Shown: positions 22,498 through 27,362 of the stretch, one piece after another
Layout of the letters: each line of letters opens with the position of its first letter
Numbering within the stretch: position 1 is the stretch's first letter
DNA from: a virus
IMG/VR virus record: IMGVR_UViG_3300044712_002474
Span: 1-40,091 of that record
DNA: 40,091 nucleotides
Reading direction: 5' to 3' (one strand)
Position numbers and translations under genes: made by a program
The notes under the pieces: generated by a model
Told to the model about the DNA's origin: nothing
What the model saw: the letters and a program-made list of their open reading frames with translations, nothing else
Databases searched by the model: none

Positions 22498-22527
22498 TTT
22501 GTTTTCGAAAAACAATTCCTATCTTTG
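22498..22527 (+). promoter_or_regulatory. Bacteroidota-type promoter of cassette 1
   Basis: TTTG at 22498-22501, an 18-nt spacer, and TATCTTTG at 22520-22527 match the -33/-7 consensus of the Bacteroidota primary sigma factor (TTTG and TAnnTTTG). Transcription should start a few bases downstream, at or just before segment A of the leader at 22532. Confidence 0.8.
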
Positions 22528-22530
22528 CAG

Positions 22531-22737
22531 TGCAAAAAAAGGAAGTGGAGCAGCCGCGCCACTATAAGGAAAGCGGTTTTTTTATTTATTCCATAAGTCT
22601 ATATTCATTTTCCATAAGTGATATGGGCGTTATTCAGGTTAAATTTTAAGTGTACGAAAGTGCCACTTTCTTTTTTTGCAACCCTGTTTAACGCCCTTTT
22701 TATTTTTATTAACTTTTAAAAAGCAAAAAAAGAAAGT
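22531..22737 (+). ncRNA. Structured leader of cassette 1: A / T1 / B-in-T2 / A' RNA switch
   Basis: Segment A (22532-22548, GCAAAAAAAGGAAGTGG) is complementary over all 17 nt, with one G-U pair, to B (22663-22679). A' (22723-22737), which ends at the start codon, is a second copy of A and pairs with B over 15 nt without mismatch. T1 is AGCCGC (22552-22557) with GCGGTT (22573-22578) plus a T-run; its loop carries CCACT (22559-22563), complementary to AGTGG at the end of A. T2 is GGGCGTTA (22625-22632) with TAACGCCC (22689-22696) plus T5; an inner CAGGTT/AACC(C)TG helix holds B in its loop. A:B and B:A' exclude each other, so ribosome access should switch. Confidence 0.8.
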
Positions 22738-23316
22738 ATGAAAGAAAACTTTTCGATTATCAAGAACATTAACTCAGTTAATATTCTTGTAAGTAACGAC
22801 GGCAATGATTACATGCCAATTAGTCCAATTTGTGAAGCATTAGGCATTGATGACAAAAGTCAAAGAGACAAAATCAATGAAGATGAACTTTACAGTTCAG
22901 TTAAGGTGCTAATCCCCCTAACTGCCCGCGACGGAAAAGACTATGAAATGGTATGTATGCCGTTTGAGTATGTGATGTTGTGGATGGGCAGCATCAACCC
23001 CAAGAACGTAAAACCCGAAGCACAGGACTTGGTGCGCACCGTACGAATGGAAATAGTGAAAGCAATAGCCTTTTATTACCGAGCCTACAAAAAGTTTGCA
23101 ATGGAAAAACAAGCCGCTATTGAGTTTATGCTAACCGAATACGAAGGCTACCAAAAAGACTTTAAGGATGCCAAAAAACGTATGGAAGAAAGCAAAAAGA
23201 AACTAAACGAAGTACGCGCTATGAGTTTTGAGGATTGGCAACAACAAACCTTTGATTTTGAAGCCCAAAAAACCGAAGAACCCGAAGAAACAGAGGAAGG
23301 AGAGGGCGATGAGTAG
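22738..23316 (+). CDS. Antirepressor-like protein of cassette 1 (P22_AR_N-type)
   Basis: A 192-aa protein whose first 125 residues match the N-terminal domain of phage antirepressors of the P22 Ant type: VLVSNDGNDYMPISPICEALGI-like core, a DELYSS segment, MVCMPFEYVMLWMGSINP and EAQDLVRTVRMEIVKA. These proteins bind and disable phage repressors or alter gene expression. Residues 125-170 form a charged helix or coiled coil, followed by a strongly acidic tail. Translation starts at the ATG that touches leader segment A', so the leader should control it directly. It overlaps the coiled-coil gene by 8 nt. Its counterpart at 26298 has a different N-terminal domain. Confidence 0.8.
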   Translation: MKENFSIIKNINSVNILVSNDGNDYMPISPICEALGIDDKSQRDKINEDELYSSVKVLIPLTARDGKDYEMVCMPFEYVMLWMGSINPKNVKPEAQDLVRTVRMEIVKAIAFYYRAYKKFAMEKQAAIEFMLTEYEGYQKDFKDAKKRMEESKKKLNEVRAMSFEDWQQQTFDFEAQKTEEPEETEEGEGDE

Positions 23317-23509
23317 AACAGCACGATTAAAAAGGCGAATACTTAAGCTGAAATATAAAATCGAAATAAAAAACAACACTATAAATCAATTAACTGATGA
23401 GATTTACACCTTAAACCGTCGCACTGAGGTGCTAAAAATTGATTATAGCGAAATGTACAATTGTCAAAAGAAAATAATTGAAGATTTGATTGAAATATCA
23501 GCGATGTAA
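23309..23509 (+). CDS. Small basic coiled-coil partner, cassette 1
   Basis: A 66-aa protein beginning MSRTARLKRRILKLKYKIEI, basic at the N-terminus and coiled coil throughout. The ATG at 23309 overlaps the antirepressor stop by 8 nt, so translation is coupled. The first 40 residues are nearly identical to those of the gene at 27084 (MSKTARLKRQILKLRYKIEL), showing that the two cassettes share this component even though their main genes differ. It might bind the antirepressor C-terminal helix, or RNA through its basic end; both ideas are inference. Confidence 0.75.
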   Translation: MSRTARLKRRILKLKYKIEIKNNTINQLTDEIYTLNRRTEVLKIDYSEMYNCQKKIIEDLIEISAM

Positions 23510-23516
23510 ATAAAAA

Positions 23517-23544
23517 GCTGCGTATGCTATATAGCATACGCAGC
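23517..23544 (+). terminator. 28-bp perfect palindrome ending cassette 1
   Basis: The 28 bases read the same on both strands (half GCTGCGTATGCTAT). They lie 7 nt after the last stop of cassette 1, preceded by TAAAAA. In RNA this is a strong hairpin and a likely terminator or processing site, though only a short A-rich tract follows. The end of cassette 2 has a similar but not identical palindrome at 27331-27362. Confidence 0.7.
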
Positions 23545-23559
23545 AAAACAATTATCATT

Positions 23560-23712
23560 ATGGAACTATCATCCGAAATACAAACAAAAATAGAAGAGGC
23601 GCAGCAATTGGAACTGAGCAAATCGGACATTGAAACCTTAAAATATGTGAGGGAAATGGAACGCGACGAGAAAGTGAAAGAACTTCTTAAACAACTGTTT
23701 GAATATGCATAG
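23560..23712 (+). CDS. Short acidic helical protein before terminase
   Basis: A 50-aa protein starting at the ATG at 23560 (MELSSEIQTKIEEAQQLELS); upstream in-frame ATG at 23524 lies within the palindrome and is discarded. It is helical and charged and overlaps the terminase small subunit start by 8 nt, so it belongs to the packaging operon. Function unknown. Confidence 0.6.
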   Translation: MELSSEIQTKIEEAQQLELSKSDIETLKYVREMERDEKVKELLKQLFEYA

Positions 23713-26039: not shown

Positions 26040-26058
26040 GAAAAAACTCACAAATAAA

Positions 26059-26089
26059 TTTGCAATTCAAAAAATCATTCCTATTTTTG
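26059..26089 (+). promoter_or_regulatory. Bacteroidota-type promoter of cassette 2
   Basis: TTTG (26059-26062), exactly 19 nt, then TATTTTTG (26082-26089): a full match to the Bacteroidota -33/-7 consensus. As in cassette 1, transcription should begin at the leader's segment A. The shared stretch ATTCCTAT-TTTGCAGTGC continues into the leader. Confidence 0.85.
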
Positions 26090-26091
26090 CA

Positions 26092-26297
26092 GTGCGAAAA
26101 AGAACGGGAGCAATCCGCACCGTTTATAAACCATTGCGGATTTTTTATTTATTCCATAAGTCTATATTCATTTTATTTTATATAAGTGATATTGGCGTTA
26201 TTCAGGTTAAAAAAATTGTACGAAAGTACCGTTCTTTTTCGCAACCCTGCTTAACGCCTTTTTTATTTTTATTAACTTTTAAAGCGAAAAAGAACGT
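26092..26297 (+). ncRNA. Structured leader of cassette 2: A / T1 / B-in-T2 / A' RNA switch
   Basis: Same plan as the cassette 1 leader with different pairing sequences. A is GCGAAAAAGAACGG (26094-26107); B is its perfect complement CCGTTCTTTTTCGC (26229-26242); A' GCGAAAAAGAACG (26284-26296) abuts the start codon. T1 is AATCCGC (26112-26118) with GCGGATT (26136-26142) plus T4, and its loop holds CCGTT (26120-26124), complementary to AACGG at the end of A. T2 is GGCGTTA (26194-26200) with TAACGCC (26252-26258) plus T6, and the inner CAGGTT/AACCCTG helix again encloses B. Stretches outside A, B, A' and T1 are almost unchanged from cassette 1. Confidence 0.82.
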
Positions 26298-26822
26298 ATG
26301 TTACAAAAATTTGAATTTAACGGAAAAGTCTTTCGAACTATTTTAGATGAGAAAGGCGACATTTGGATACCATGTATTGATATTTTTGATATTTTAGGGT
26401 ACTCCAAAAACCAAAATATGACAGATATTTTGGATGATGACGAAAAAAAGCTGACTACGCTCACAGCGTACTCAGGTGATAAAAAACAGACATGGTTACT
26501 AAACGAAAGCGGGTTTTATCATGTTGTTTTAAGTTCCACAAAACCAGAGGCTAAAGAGTTTAGAAAGAAAGTTACTGGCGAAATTTTACCCGCCTTACGA
26601 AAAGCTGGTTACTACACTACCGAACAAGGTCAACAACGTGAGCTTGATTTGCAACAGGTTACAAAAATCATTTCGGAAAAGAAATCACTGCTAAAGTTAA
26701 AGCAATCAGAGATTAAAGACCTGAAAACCGAAATAGAACAATTAGAACTCCAACGCGACGATGTGATTGTAAACTTTGCCCAACTTAAACTTCAATTAAC
26801 GGAGGGAGGCAGTGATGAGTAA
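26298..26822 (+). CDS. BRO-N antirepressor-like protein of cassette 2
   Basis: A 174-aa protein. Residues 1-115 form a BRO-N domain (FEFNGKVFRTILDEKGDIWI, DILGYSKNQNMTDILDDDEK, WLLNESGFYHVVLSSTKPEA, FRKKVTGEILPALRKAGYY), found in phage antirepressors and large DNA viruses and often DNA-binding. Residues 125-170 are a long charged coiled coil ending in an acidic tail (EGGSDE). The start codon touches leader segment A', so translation should depend on B being unavailable. Its N-domain differs in type from that of the cassette 1 gene although the leaders are homologous. It overlaps the next gene by 8 nt. Confidence 0.85.
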   Translation: MLQKFEFNGKVFRTILDEKGDIWIPCIDIFDILGYSKNQNMTDILDDDEKKLTTLTAYSGDKKQTWLLNESGFYHVVLSSTKPEAKEFRKKVTGEILPALRKAGYYTTEQGQQRELDLQQVTKIISEKKSLLKLKQSEIKDLKTEIEQLELQRDDVIVNFAQLKLQLTEGGSDE

Positions 26823-27087
26823 TCAAATAACAACCTTAAAAGCATGTGTAAAGCAATTGATTAAAGAAAACTGCGAACTAAAGCAAATGCTTAAATACGA
26901 ACACGACACGATAGCAGCACAGTCTTATACCATAGATGCACAATTTAAGATGTTAGATGCCCAGTCTCATCTTATACAAACCTATAGCAACATAACAACA
27001 CACCGTACCCCAATGCGCACACAAACTAAAAGCATTAACTTTGTTGCTAATGTAACCAAAACAAAGCAAAGGAGGGCAATCCTATGA
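26815..27087 (+). CDS. Small helical protein, cassette 2 only
   Basis: A 90-aa protein, start at the ATG at 26815 (a GTG precedes it by 3 nt). The N-terminal half is a heptad-like helix (LKACVKQLIKENCELKQMLK) followed by a repeated pattern AQSYTIDAQFKMLDAQSHLI; the C-terminus is basic. It overlaps both neighbours (8 nt and ATGA), so all three cassette proteins are made from one mRNA. Cassette 1 has no equivalent, so this is an optional extra component. Family unknown. Confidence 0.65.
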   Translation: MSNQITTLKACVKQLIKENCELKQMLKYEHDTIAAQSYTIDAQFKMLDAQSHLIQTYSNITTHRTPMRTQTKSINFVANVTKTKQRRAIL

Positions 27088-27287
27088 GTAAGACAGCCCG
27101 ATTAAAAAGACAAATACTTAAGCTCAGATACAAAATTGAGCTAAAAAACAACACAATAAATCAACTAACTGACGAGGTTTATACCTTAACCCAACGTACT
27201 GAAATGCACAGGATTAATTTTGTTAACGTTATTAATAGTCAAAACAAAACAATTGATAACTTAATGGAACATATCACTATGAGTTAA
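27084..27287 (+). CDS. Small basic coiled-coil partner, cassette 2
   Basis: A 67-aa homologue of the protein at 23309: conserved MS-TARLKR-ILKL-YKIE start, then KNNTINQLTDE, with divergence in the last 25 residues. It is coupled to the preceding gene by ATGA. Conservation of this protein and the leader scaffold, against change of the main gene's N-terminal domain, suggests it is an integral part of the cassette. Confidence 0.75.
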   Translation: MSKTARLKRQILKLRYKIELKNNTINQLTDEVYTLTQRTEMHRINFVNVINSQNKTIDNLMEHITMS

Positions 27288-27330
27288 GAATGATAGTGTA
27301 ATAAGTATATAGCATGCAATGTAACTACAT

Positions 27331-27362
27331 AGTAACATATATAGCATGCTATATATGTTACT
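27331..27362 (+). terminator. 32-bp perfect palindrome ending cassette 2
   Basis: The 32 bases read identically on both strands (half AGTAACATATATAGCA). The core TATATAGCATGC also occurs once more, at 27306-27317. It occupies the same place as the 28-bp palindrome of cassette 1. No T-run follows, so a role in mRNA end formation or recombination is as likely as classical termination. Confidence 0.6.

Follow-up and report, generated by a model that had tools for sequence, protein, structure and literature searches.

Leaders of two antirepressor-type cassettes in a probable Bacteroidota phage resemble antisense-RNA switches of the C4/isrK type

The 40,091-base IMG/VR virus record IMGVR_UViG_3300044712_002474, which in its full length is the window analyzed here, carries two units of promoter, leader, antirepressor-like gene, small basic gene and palindrome, one on either side of the terminase genes. 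We argue that each of the two leaders is probably an antisense-RNA switch of the type represented by C4 (P1/P7), CI (P4) and isrK-C4 (N15, Gifsy-1), with a sequence family of its own outside Rfam. The virus is most likely a phage of a Bacteroidota host: Porphyromonas phage terminases share 37-39% identity with its own, and TATNTTTG is the form taken by its promoter-like elements. The promoter form TATCTTTGCA/TATNTTTG was also noticed 5' of rpmH-like and tRNA genes when 20 Bacteroidales loci were scanned; we call these elements promoter-like on the strength of the Bacteroidota promoter consensus.

The two leaders, at positions 22531-22737 and 26092-26297 and each about 205 nucleotides (nt) long, are 81% identical (BLAST E 1.7e-54). 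Each contains three mutually complementary strands, here named A1, B and A2, which change together between the copies and which the first-pass annotation of this DNA had missed. The elements of both leaders and the genes they precede, all on the plus strand, are the following (bp, base pairs).

22498-22527 (+): cassette 1 promoter-like element, predicted; TTTG at 22498-22501, 18 nt, then TATCTTTG at 22520-22527; kept between copies
22532-22548 (+): cassette 1 A1, first target resembling seqA or c4-a1b1, where the RNA 5' end is predicted; pairs with B at 17 positions including one G-U, -22.3 kcal/mol
22544-22585 (+): cassette 1 first structured element, a possible H-type pseudoknot; 22544-22548 with 22559-22563 and 22552-22557 with 22573-22578, T run after it
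22625-22696 (+): cassette 1 C4-like core; outer stem 22625-22632/22689-22696 (GGGCGTTA/TAACGCCC), inner stem CAGG/CCTG, GAAA-tetraloop hairpin 22652-22663, B at 22663-22679
22723-22737 (+): cassette 1 A2, seqC-like second target adjoining the ATG; 15-bp perfect duplex with B, -17.9 kcal/mol
22738-23316 (+): antirepressor-like gene, P22_AR_N domain; PF10547 E 1.6e-23, phrog_524 (anti-repressor Ant) E 1.3e-22
26059-26089 (+): cassette 2 promoter-like element, predicted; TTTG at 26059-26062, 19 nt, then TATTTTTG at 26082-26089
26094-26108 (+): cassette 2 A1; perfect duplex of 14 bp with the B of the same cassette, -22.3 kcal/mol (across cassettes -7.3 and -8.8)
26103-26148 (+): cassette 2 first structured element; 26103-26107 with 26120-26124 and 26112-26118 with 26136-26142, T run after it
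26194-26258 (+): cassette 2 C4-like core; outer stem 26194-26200/26252-26258 (GGCGTTA/TAACGCC), GAAA hairpin 26218-26229, B at 26229-26242
26284-26296 (+): cassette 2 A2, separated from the ATG by one base; perfect duplex of 13 bp with B, -18.9 kcal/mol
26298-26822 (+): antirepressor-like gene, Bro-N domain; PF02498 E 1.3e-18, phrog_130 E 7.2e-33

Both genes exceed the curated domain cut-offs (83.5 vs 30.7 bits for P22_AR_N and 67.8 vs 25.6 bits for Bro-N) and on this ground are predicted antirepressors. Folded alone, the two cores adopt similar structures of -25.8 kcal/mol in cassette 1 and -20.7 kcal/mol in cassette 2, with B lying directly 3' of the tetraloop hairpin, whose stem reads GUAC/GUGC or GUAC/GUAC depending on the copy. 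The two leaders are near-identical in linker and core scaffold, while their pairing arms differ; in an automatic alignment 24 of 67 arm columns vs 30 of 147 columns in the rest of the leader were different, a modest excess (Fisher P 0.018) to which we give no weight. The predicted duplexes across cassettes reach -7.3, -8.8, -8.7 and -5.8 kcal/mol, compared with -17.9 to -22.3 kcal/mol for the cognate ones. We then shuffled the upstream region, keeping the A2 region, and scored the sum of the B:A2 and A1:B duplexes. The observed sum was reached by none of 20 mononucleotide and none of 30 dinucleotide shuffles in either copy, and thus the arm pairing goes beyond chance. The whole-leader folds had z scores of -3.2 and -3.3, none of 200 shuffles matching their stability, and a search for exact complements of at least 11 nt in 53 sequences (the record and 52 loci) returned the two leaders plus chance 11-mers.

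The end of A1 has a further possible partner 10-12 nt downstream, which repeats the 5' end of B and can form a pseudoknot with the next hairpin. This pairing is kept in both copies, and both stems of the first structured element still pair in the second copy despite altered letters. In cassette 1 this element occupies an isrK-like place and is a possible early terminator. It could instead be argued that the 5' pseudoknot is an aptamer and the whole a ligand- or protein-binding leader, in which folding of the pseudoknot sequesters the A1 end and lets B close A2. That the two stems of the pseudoknot remain able to pair in either copy thanks to compensating letters, and that the 3' strand of the first stem repeats the B 5' end, would agree with such a device; yet a ligand pocket is expected to be the most conserved part, and here linker and core are, while the stems and part of the loops differ between copies, which makes it very unlikely in our estimate. 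A toxin-antitoxin RNA, a group I or II intron and a riboswitch were also considered as main function and dropped.

An antisense switch of the C4/isrK type would operate here as follows. In a lysogen the leader RNA would end or be cut near the core, freeing a B-bearing RNA which would pair with A2 and mask the translation start of the antirepressor gene and, via the overlapping genes, the remainder of the cassette. Competition for B would come from A1, acting either in cis or as a short, terminated IsrK-like RNA, and may succeed because A1:B is predicted to be stronger than B:A2; translation would be released, the antirepressor made and the prophage derepressed. That the leader RNA acts in trans, is processed and serves immunity is our inference. 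As the scaffold is shared and the arms differ, each B should silence its own antirepressor alone, and one phage would have two immunity specificities, comparable to the heteroimmunity of P1 and P7.

The same layout was sought before other Bro-N genes, sampled from 296 Bacteroidota-phylum genomes (66 matching, 30 loci kept) and from two overlapping sets of 80 viral loci. A first screen covered 92 upstream regions, comprising 5 candidates plus 87 regions that came from 80 viral Bro-N loci, alternative starts included; it left out loci with less than 230 nt upstream, and the best 45 by raw score were considered. A second covered 56 non-identical upstream regions, of which the best 22 by z were considered. 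These screens single out G020, L355 and the record under study; the 30 loci kept from Bacteroidota genomes are mostly of a different type of about 280 amino acids (aa). G020 (L198, G020:C36:66000-80000) contains two Bro-N cassettes on the minus strand, at about 6660-5701 and 4640-3696 and 2 kb apart, with the same A1/B/A2 layout, differing arms and Bro-N proteins that are 82% identical; each is followed by a conserved 71- or 75-aa open reading frame (ORF), these being 48% identical to each other. Its cognate duplexes have -27.8 and -25.3 kcal/mol for A1:B and -20.8 and -28.1 kcal/mol for B:A2, as against -16.6/-10.5 and -7.8/-16.5 kcal/mol for the non-cognate ones. This locus was first spotted by eye and the tests confirmed it afterwards; judged by its phage gene families, it looks like a Mu-like prophage.

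L355, a GC-rich viral contig, has bipartite arms with -26.2 kcal/mol for A1:B and -17.5 kcal/mol for B:A2, and beat 10 of 10 shuffles (z -2.7). Its core (L355:1035-1118), upstream of a Bro-N gene, independently matches Rfam sRNA-Xcc1 at 58.1 bits. This family (RF02221), whose name comes from a small RNA of Xanthomonas, is found 5' of a phage Bro-N gene in L266:2577-2665 as well; with its A1 and A2 partners in L355, sRNA-Xcc1 looks like another C4-like immunity RNA; the word "antirepressor" is absent from the main text of the original sRNA-Xcc1 paper. Classical C4 was found at Rfam gathering scores in 2 of 40 viral Bro-N loci (L210 and L249). Taken together, the sRNA-Xcc1 of L355, the classical C4 of L210 and L249, G020 and the present leaders indicate that antisense RNAs of several unrelated sequence families occupy the same place before Bro-N genes. 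Polaribacter phage Leef_1, whose P22_AR_N-like gene is preceded by about 10 nt, is without such a leader.

Three further loci are unproven as layout relatives: L266 beat 20 of 20 shuffles in one screen, yet in the other, where this locus is L364, 1 of 10 shuffles reached it; L277 was ahead of its 20 shuffles by just 0.1 kcal/mol; and L329 beat 10 of 10 at z -1.2. It may also be noted that on the minus strand of L199 (G141:C11), near 5900-5690, a Bro-N gene is accompanied by near-identical A1 and A2 (CGTTCAAATCATTA and CGTTCGAATCATT) and a stem-closed core, with a B pairing that is short and not significant; this may be a bipartite C4-like variant.

A wider proposal, which we offer tentatively and think somewhat more apt to fail than to hold, is that of a re-targetable immunity RNA, in which the scaffold is conserved and the three strands are replaced together, giving two mutually blind specificities tied to different antirepressor types. 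Doubling of the cassette with change of the guide would then be a recurrent route to heteroimmunity outside the enterobacterial P1/P4 world, on a scaffold unrelated in sequence to C4; the recurrence is suggested by G020, which shows the same doubling with different arms. A C4-like switch that a probable Bacteroidota phage has on an unrelated scaffold, in two copies with orthogonal arms, would by itself let the splitting of RNA immunity specificities be tested cleanly in nature, and searching by layout would reach such switches that sequence models miss.

Several observations weigh against a C4/isrK-type switch. The leader is known in two copies, both in this genome. Exact leader patterns had no match in viral contigs, and a loose pattern matched at least 120 stretches there with no A1/B/A2 triple among the matches listed; 19 stretches found with a leader pattern in GTDB genome contigs were all coding or unrelated sequence by inspection, and the leader model R1 gave one weak match in 296 Bacteroidota-phylum genomes, in or beside a CBS-domain gene. 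An Rfam scan of the record returned no family match for the leaders, RF01695 and isrK included, and a terminator scan allowing loops of 3-8 nt misses the first hairpin, which has a 15-17-nt loop. As regards lysogeny, no integrase or repressor was recognized among the scanned ORFs of the record with Pfam and PHROGs. In the duplex tests the classical C4 of P4, N15 and the C4-bearing L210 did not rise above shuffles, and therefore this test does not recognize the C4 family, being blind to short bipartite arms; at L199, similar though it is by eye, the observed pairing was reached by 3 of 30 shuffles. Finally, the unconstrained fold of the full leader places A1, not A2, on B and the A2 region in a weak hairpin, and with A1 removed the leader still pairs the core and not B:A2. 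Since the core wins even without A1, repression would require a separate or specially folded B RNA.

This minimum-free-energy fold, and the presence of all three strands within one predicted transcript, would suit a bistable leader acting in cis only, where A1 and A2 are rivals for B on the same RNA molecule, the balance is set by co-transcriptional folding, a ribosome or a protein, and neither a separate small RNA nor an immunity function is involved. We consider this unlikely: the order of the elements matches the trans-acting isrK/C4 systems, the T runs that come early, behind both stems, would fit short RNAs, and orthogonal arms have no obvious use if pairing is purely intramolecular, though drift in cis would also yield them. 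The searches for further copies bear on another idea, that A1 and A2 are target-site duplications of a guided insertion element with B as its guide. A1 and A2 are indeed direct repeats that differ between the two places, and the promoter joined to A2 and the ATG alone would make a plausible short 5' leader. An element of about 200 nt without a protein of its own, of which no copies were found elsewhere and whose position with respect to promoter and ATG is shared by both cassettes and by isrK/C4 systems, is nevertheless so improbable that we give it almost no weight. A blastn search of phage records with the leader returned nothing, and among 393 genomes of one order short matches (E 0.01 or better) occurred in 138; the 20 loci kept were compared, and those listed were promoter-like or AT-rich pieces.

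The remaining parts of the cassettes and the genes between them are as follows.

23309-23509 (+): cassette 1 small basic gene, probably coiled-coil, overlapping the antirepressor gene by 8 nt
23517-23544 (+): 28-nt perfect palindrome in which the half site TATATAGCATAC occurs twice; resembles a terminator for the minus strand alone
23560-23712 (+): 50-aa ORF between cassette 1 and the terminase genes
23708-24328 (+): terminase small-subunit-like gene, context outside the switch; tblastn matches in L370, L373, L372 and L371, E 2e-31 to 8e-7
24282-25976 (+): terminase large subunit, context; phrog_2 E 2.5e-11, 46 phage records at 80% coverage or more
26815-27087 (+): extra small gene of cassette 2, overlapping both neighbours; no family match above cut-off
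27084-27287 (+): cassette 2 small basic gene, probably coiled-coil, 62% identical to 23309-23509
27331-27362 (+): 32-nt perfect palindrome built on TATATAGCATGC half sites; one more copy stands alone at 27306-27317

The first-pass annotation had described one cassette architecture used twice with the antirepressor N-terminal type exchanged, and this description stands. Promoter, leader, antirepressor-like gene, small basic gene and long perfect palindrome are all present in both units, and the N-terminal types do differ (P22_AR_N vs Bro-N), since BLASTP between the two antirepressors gives merely E 0.99. Cassette 1 runs from leader through P22_AR_N gene and small basic gene to the 28-nt palindrome, and cassette 2 from leader through Bro-N gene, the additional gene at 26815-27087 that had also been claimed, and small basic gene to the 32-nt palindrome. 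Because the genes inside each cassette overlap by 4-8 nt, their translation is probably coupled. The terminase pair lies between the copies as reported, together with the 50-aa ORF.

The same annotation had further taken leader and coiled-coil gene for the constant parts, and had proposed a search of phage genomes for the two together. The pair is constant inside this genome alone (n=2); G020 and L355 have the leader layout without the coiled-coil gene, and within the leader the pairing arms, the part that matters, differ between copies. No relative of the coiled-coil protein was found in 50,697 phage records or in viral contigs, and the leader searches described above likewise brought up no relative. 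Hence an effector-exchange cassette, in which leader and coiled-coil gene form a functional unit, the protein binds RNA or effector, and the flanking copies allow terminase exchange, is in our opinion extremely unlikely, even with the coiled-coil gene in both cassettes, 62% identical and overlapping the upstream gene. It would have to be reconciled with a layout that occurs without that gene, with the lack of coiled-coil homologues in the databases named, and with terminase relatives without cassettes nearby in the flanks viewed.

In four such relatives, in which the homologue of the small-subunit-like gene is the ORF just 5' of terminase, no antirepressor or coiled-coil gene was seen near terminase in about 1.6-4 kb of flank on each side. 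That these four have the terminase pair without cassettes in the flanks viewed suggests that the cassettes were inserted beside the pair. Recombination of direct repeats would delete the terminase pair, and not swap terminase genes as had been supposed.

A 12-base word common to both palindromes, TATATAGCATRC, has 5 copies in the record, all at cassette ends (23522-23539, 27306-27317 and 27338-27355), against 0.26 expected for a word that was picked after the palindromes had been seen; its inverted arrangements in the two palindromes are opposite. The palindromes may be protein-binding sites or read-through barriers, and TATATAGCATRC is a possible protein-binding site. Just past cassette 2, at 27459-27505, there is a 19-bp perfect inverted repeat (TCTATTAATTAATAGTTTA) with a 9-nt loop. 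Elsewhere in the record a 233-aa minus-strand ORF (34273-34974), with no plus-strand gene over it, interrupts an otherwise plus-strand layout; it has no PHROGs or Pfam match and may encode a regulator or be a moron gene.

Immunity by antisense RNAs of the C4/CI type is mainly known from enterobacterial phages. In a table of the Rfam source paper, c4 is listed for Proteobacteria and phages only (PMC2864571). A literature search, in which subscription journals were scarcely covered, found no account describing this leader, and none of C4-like RNAs from phages of Bacteroidota. Among other antirepressor-controlling RNAs, sar of phage P22 is transcribed against its target from a promoter of its own. 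As is proposed for the leaders here, it represses an antirepressor gene by antisense pairing, according to passages of PMC12197685; unlike sar, B lies upstream on the same strand and transcript as its target. sRNA-Xcc1 shares with the leaders an outer stem enclosing two hairpins and, in L355, a place between A1 and A2, 5' of the Bro-N gene; it differs in being GC-rich, in its sequence and in its bipartite arms. In the IsrK-orf45-anrP system of Salmonella prophage Gifsy-1 (RF01394) a short 5' RNA is able to pair with a downstream, antirepressor-controlling part of its own operon RNA, with the antirepressor downstream, as would be the case here, and IsrK in trans raises anrP translation 139-fold, as parts of PMC4825925 describe. 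Our leaders, in contrast, have no isrK sequence match and no orf45 equivalent between leader and antirepressor. For the first target of isrK and c4-a1b1, which precedes the antisense core and ends in a terminator, the leaders have a candidate in A1 with its T-run hairpin, the hairpin being the long-looped one already mentioned as missed by the terminator scan and without an Rfam match.

The closest likeness is to C4 itself. C4 (RF01695; P1, P7, N15 and P4 CI RNA, with the target c4-a1b1, RF03163) has an outer stem enclosing a tetraloop hairpin and the antisense strand, as in both core folds here. An Rfam scan of P4 and N15 matched RF01695 in both, with isrK and c4-a1b1 upstream of C4, and in the N15 annotation the antirepressor comes next after C4. 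The leaders follow the same order of first target with hairpin, stem-enclosed antisense and second target, and the antirepressor comes next, as in N15. P4 CI RNA has its pairing partners on either side of CI, seqA upstream and seqC downstream (PMC4825925, in part), and C4 RNA pairs around the ribosome-binding site of the ant mRNA, the basis of P1/P7 heteroimmunity (PMC12197685, in part); here too a target lies upstream and another at the translation start of an antirepressor-type operon, A2 being at the ATG of the P22_AR_N and Bro-N genes. Cross-reaction between P1 and P7 is restricted by a mere 4-nt deviation, and it is RNase P that cleaves C4 out of the precursor RNA (PMC5320573, in part). 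Unlike C4, the leaders have one continuous arm of 13-17 bp in place of two short loops, a' and b', pairing two target segments; they have no RF01695 match at the gathering score, A2 adjoins the ATG without a leader ORF between, and there are two cassettes in one genome. Combined together, these comparisons point to leaders which, as far as sequence and predicted folding can tell, would work like C4 and isrK while not being members of RF01695 as tested.

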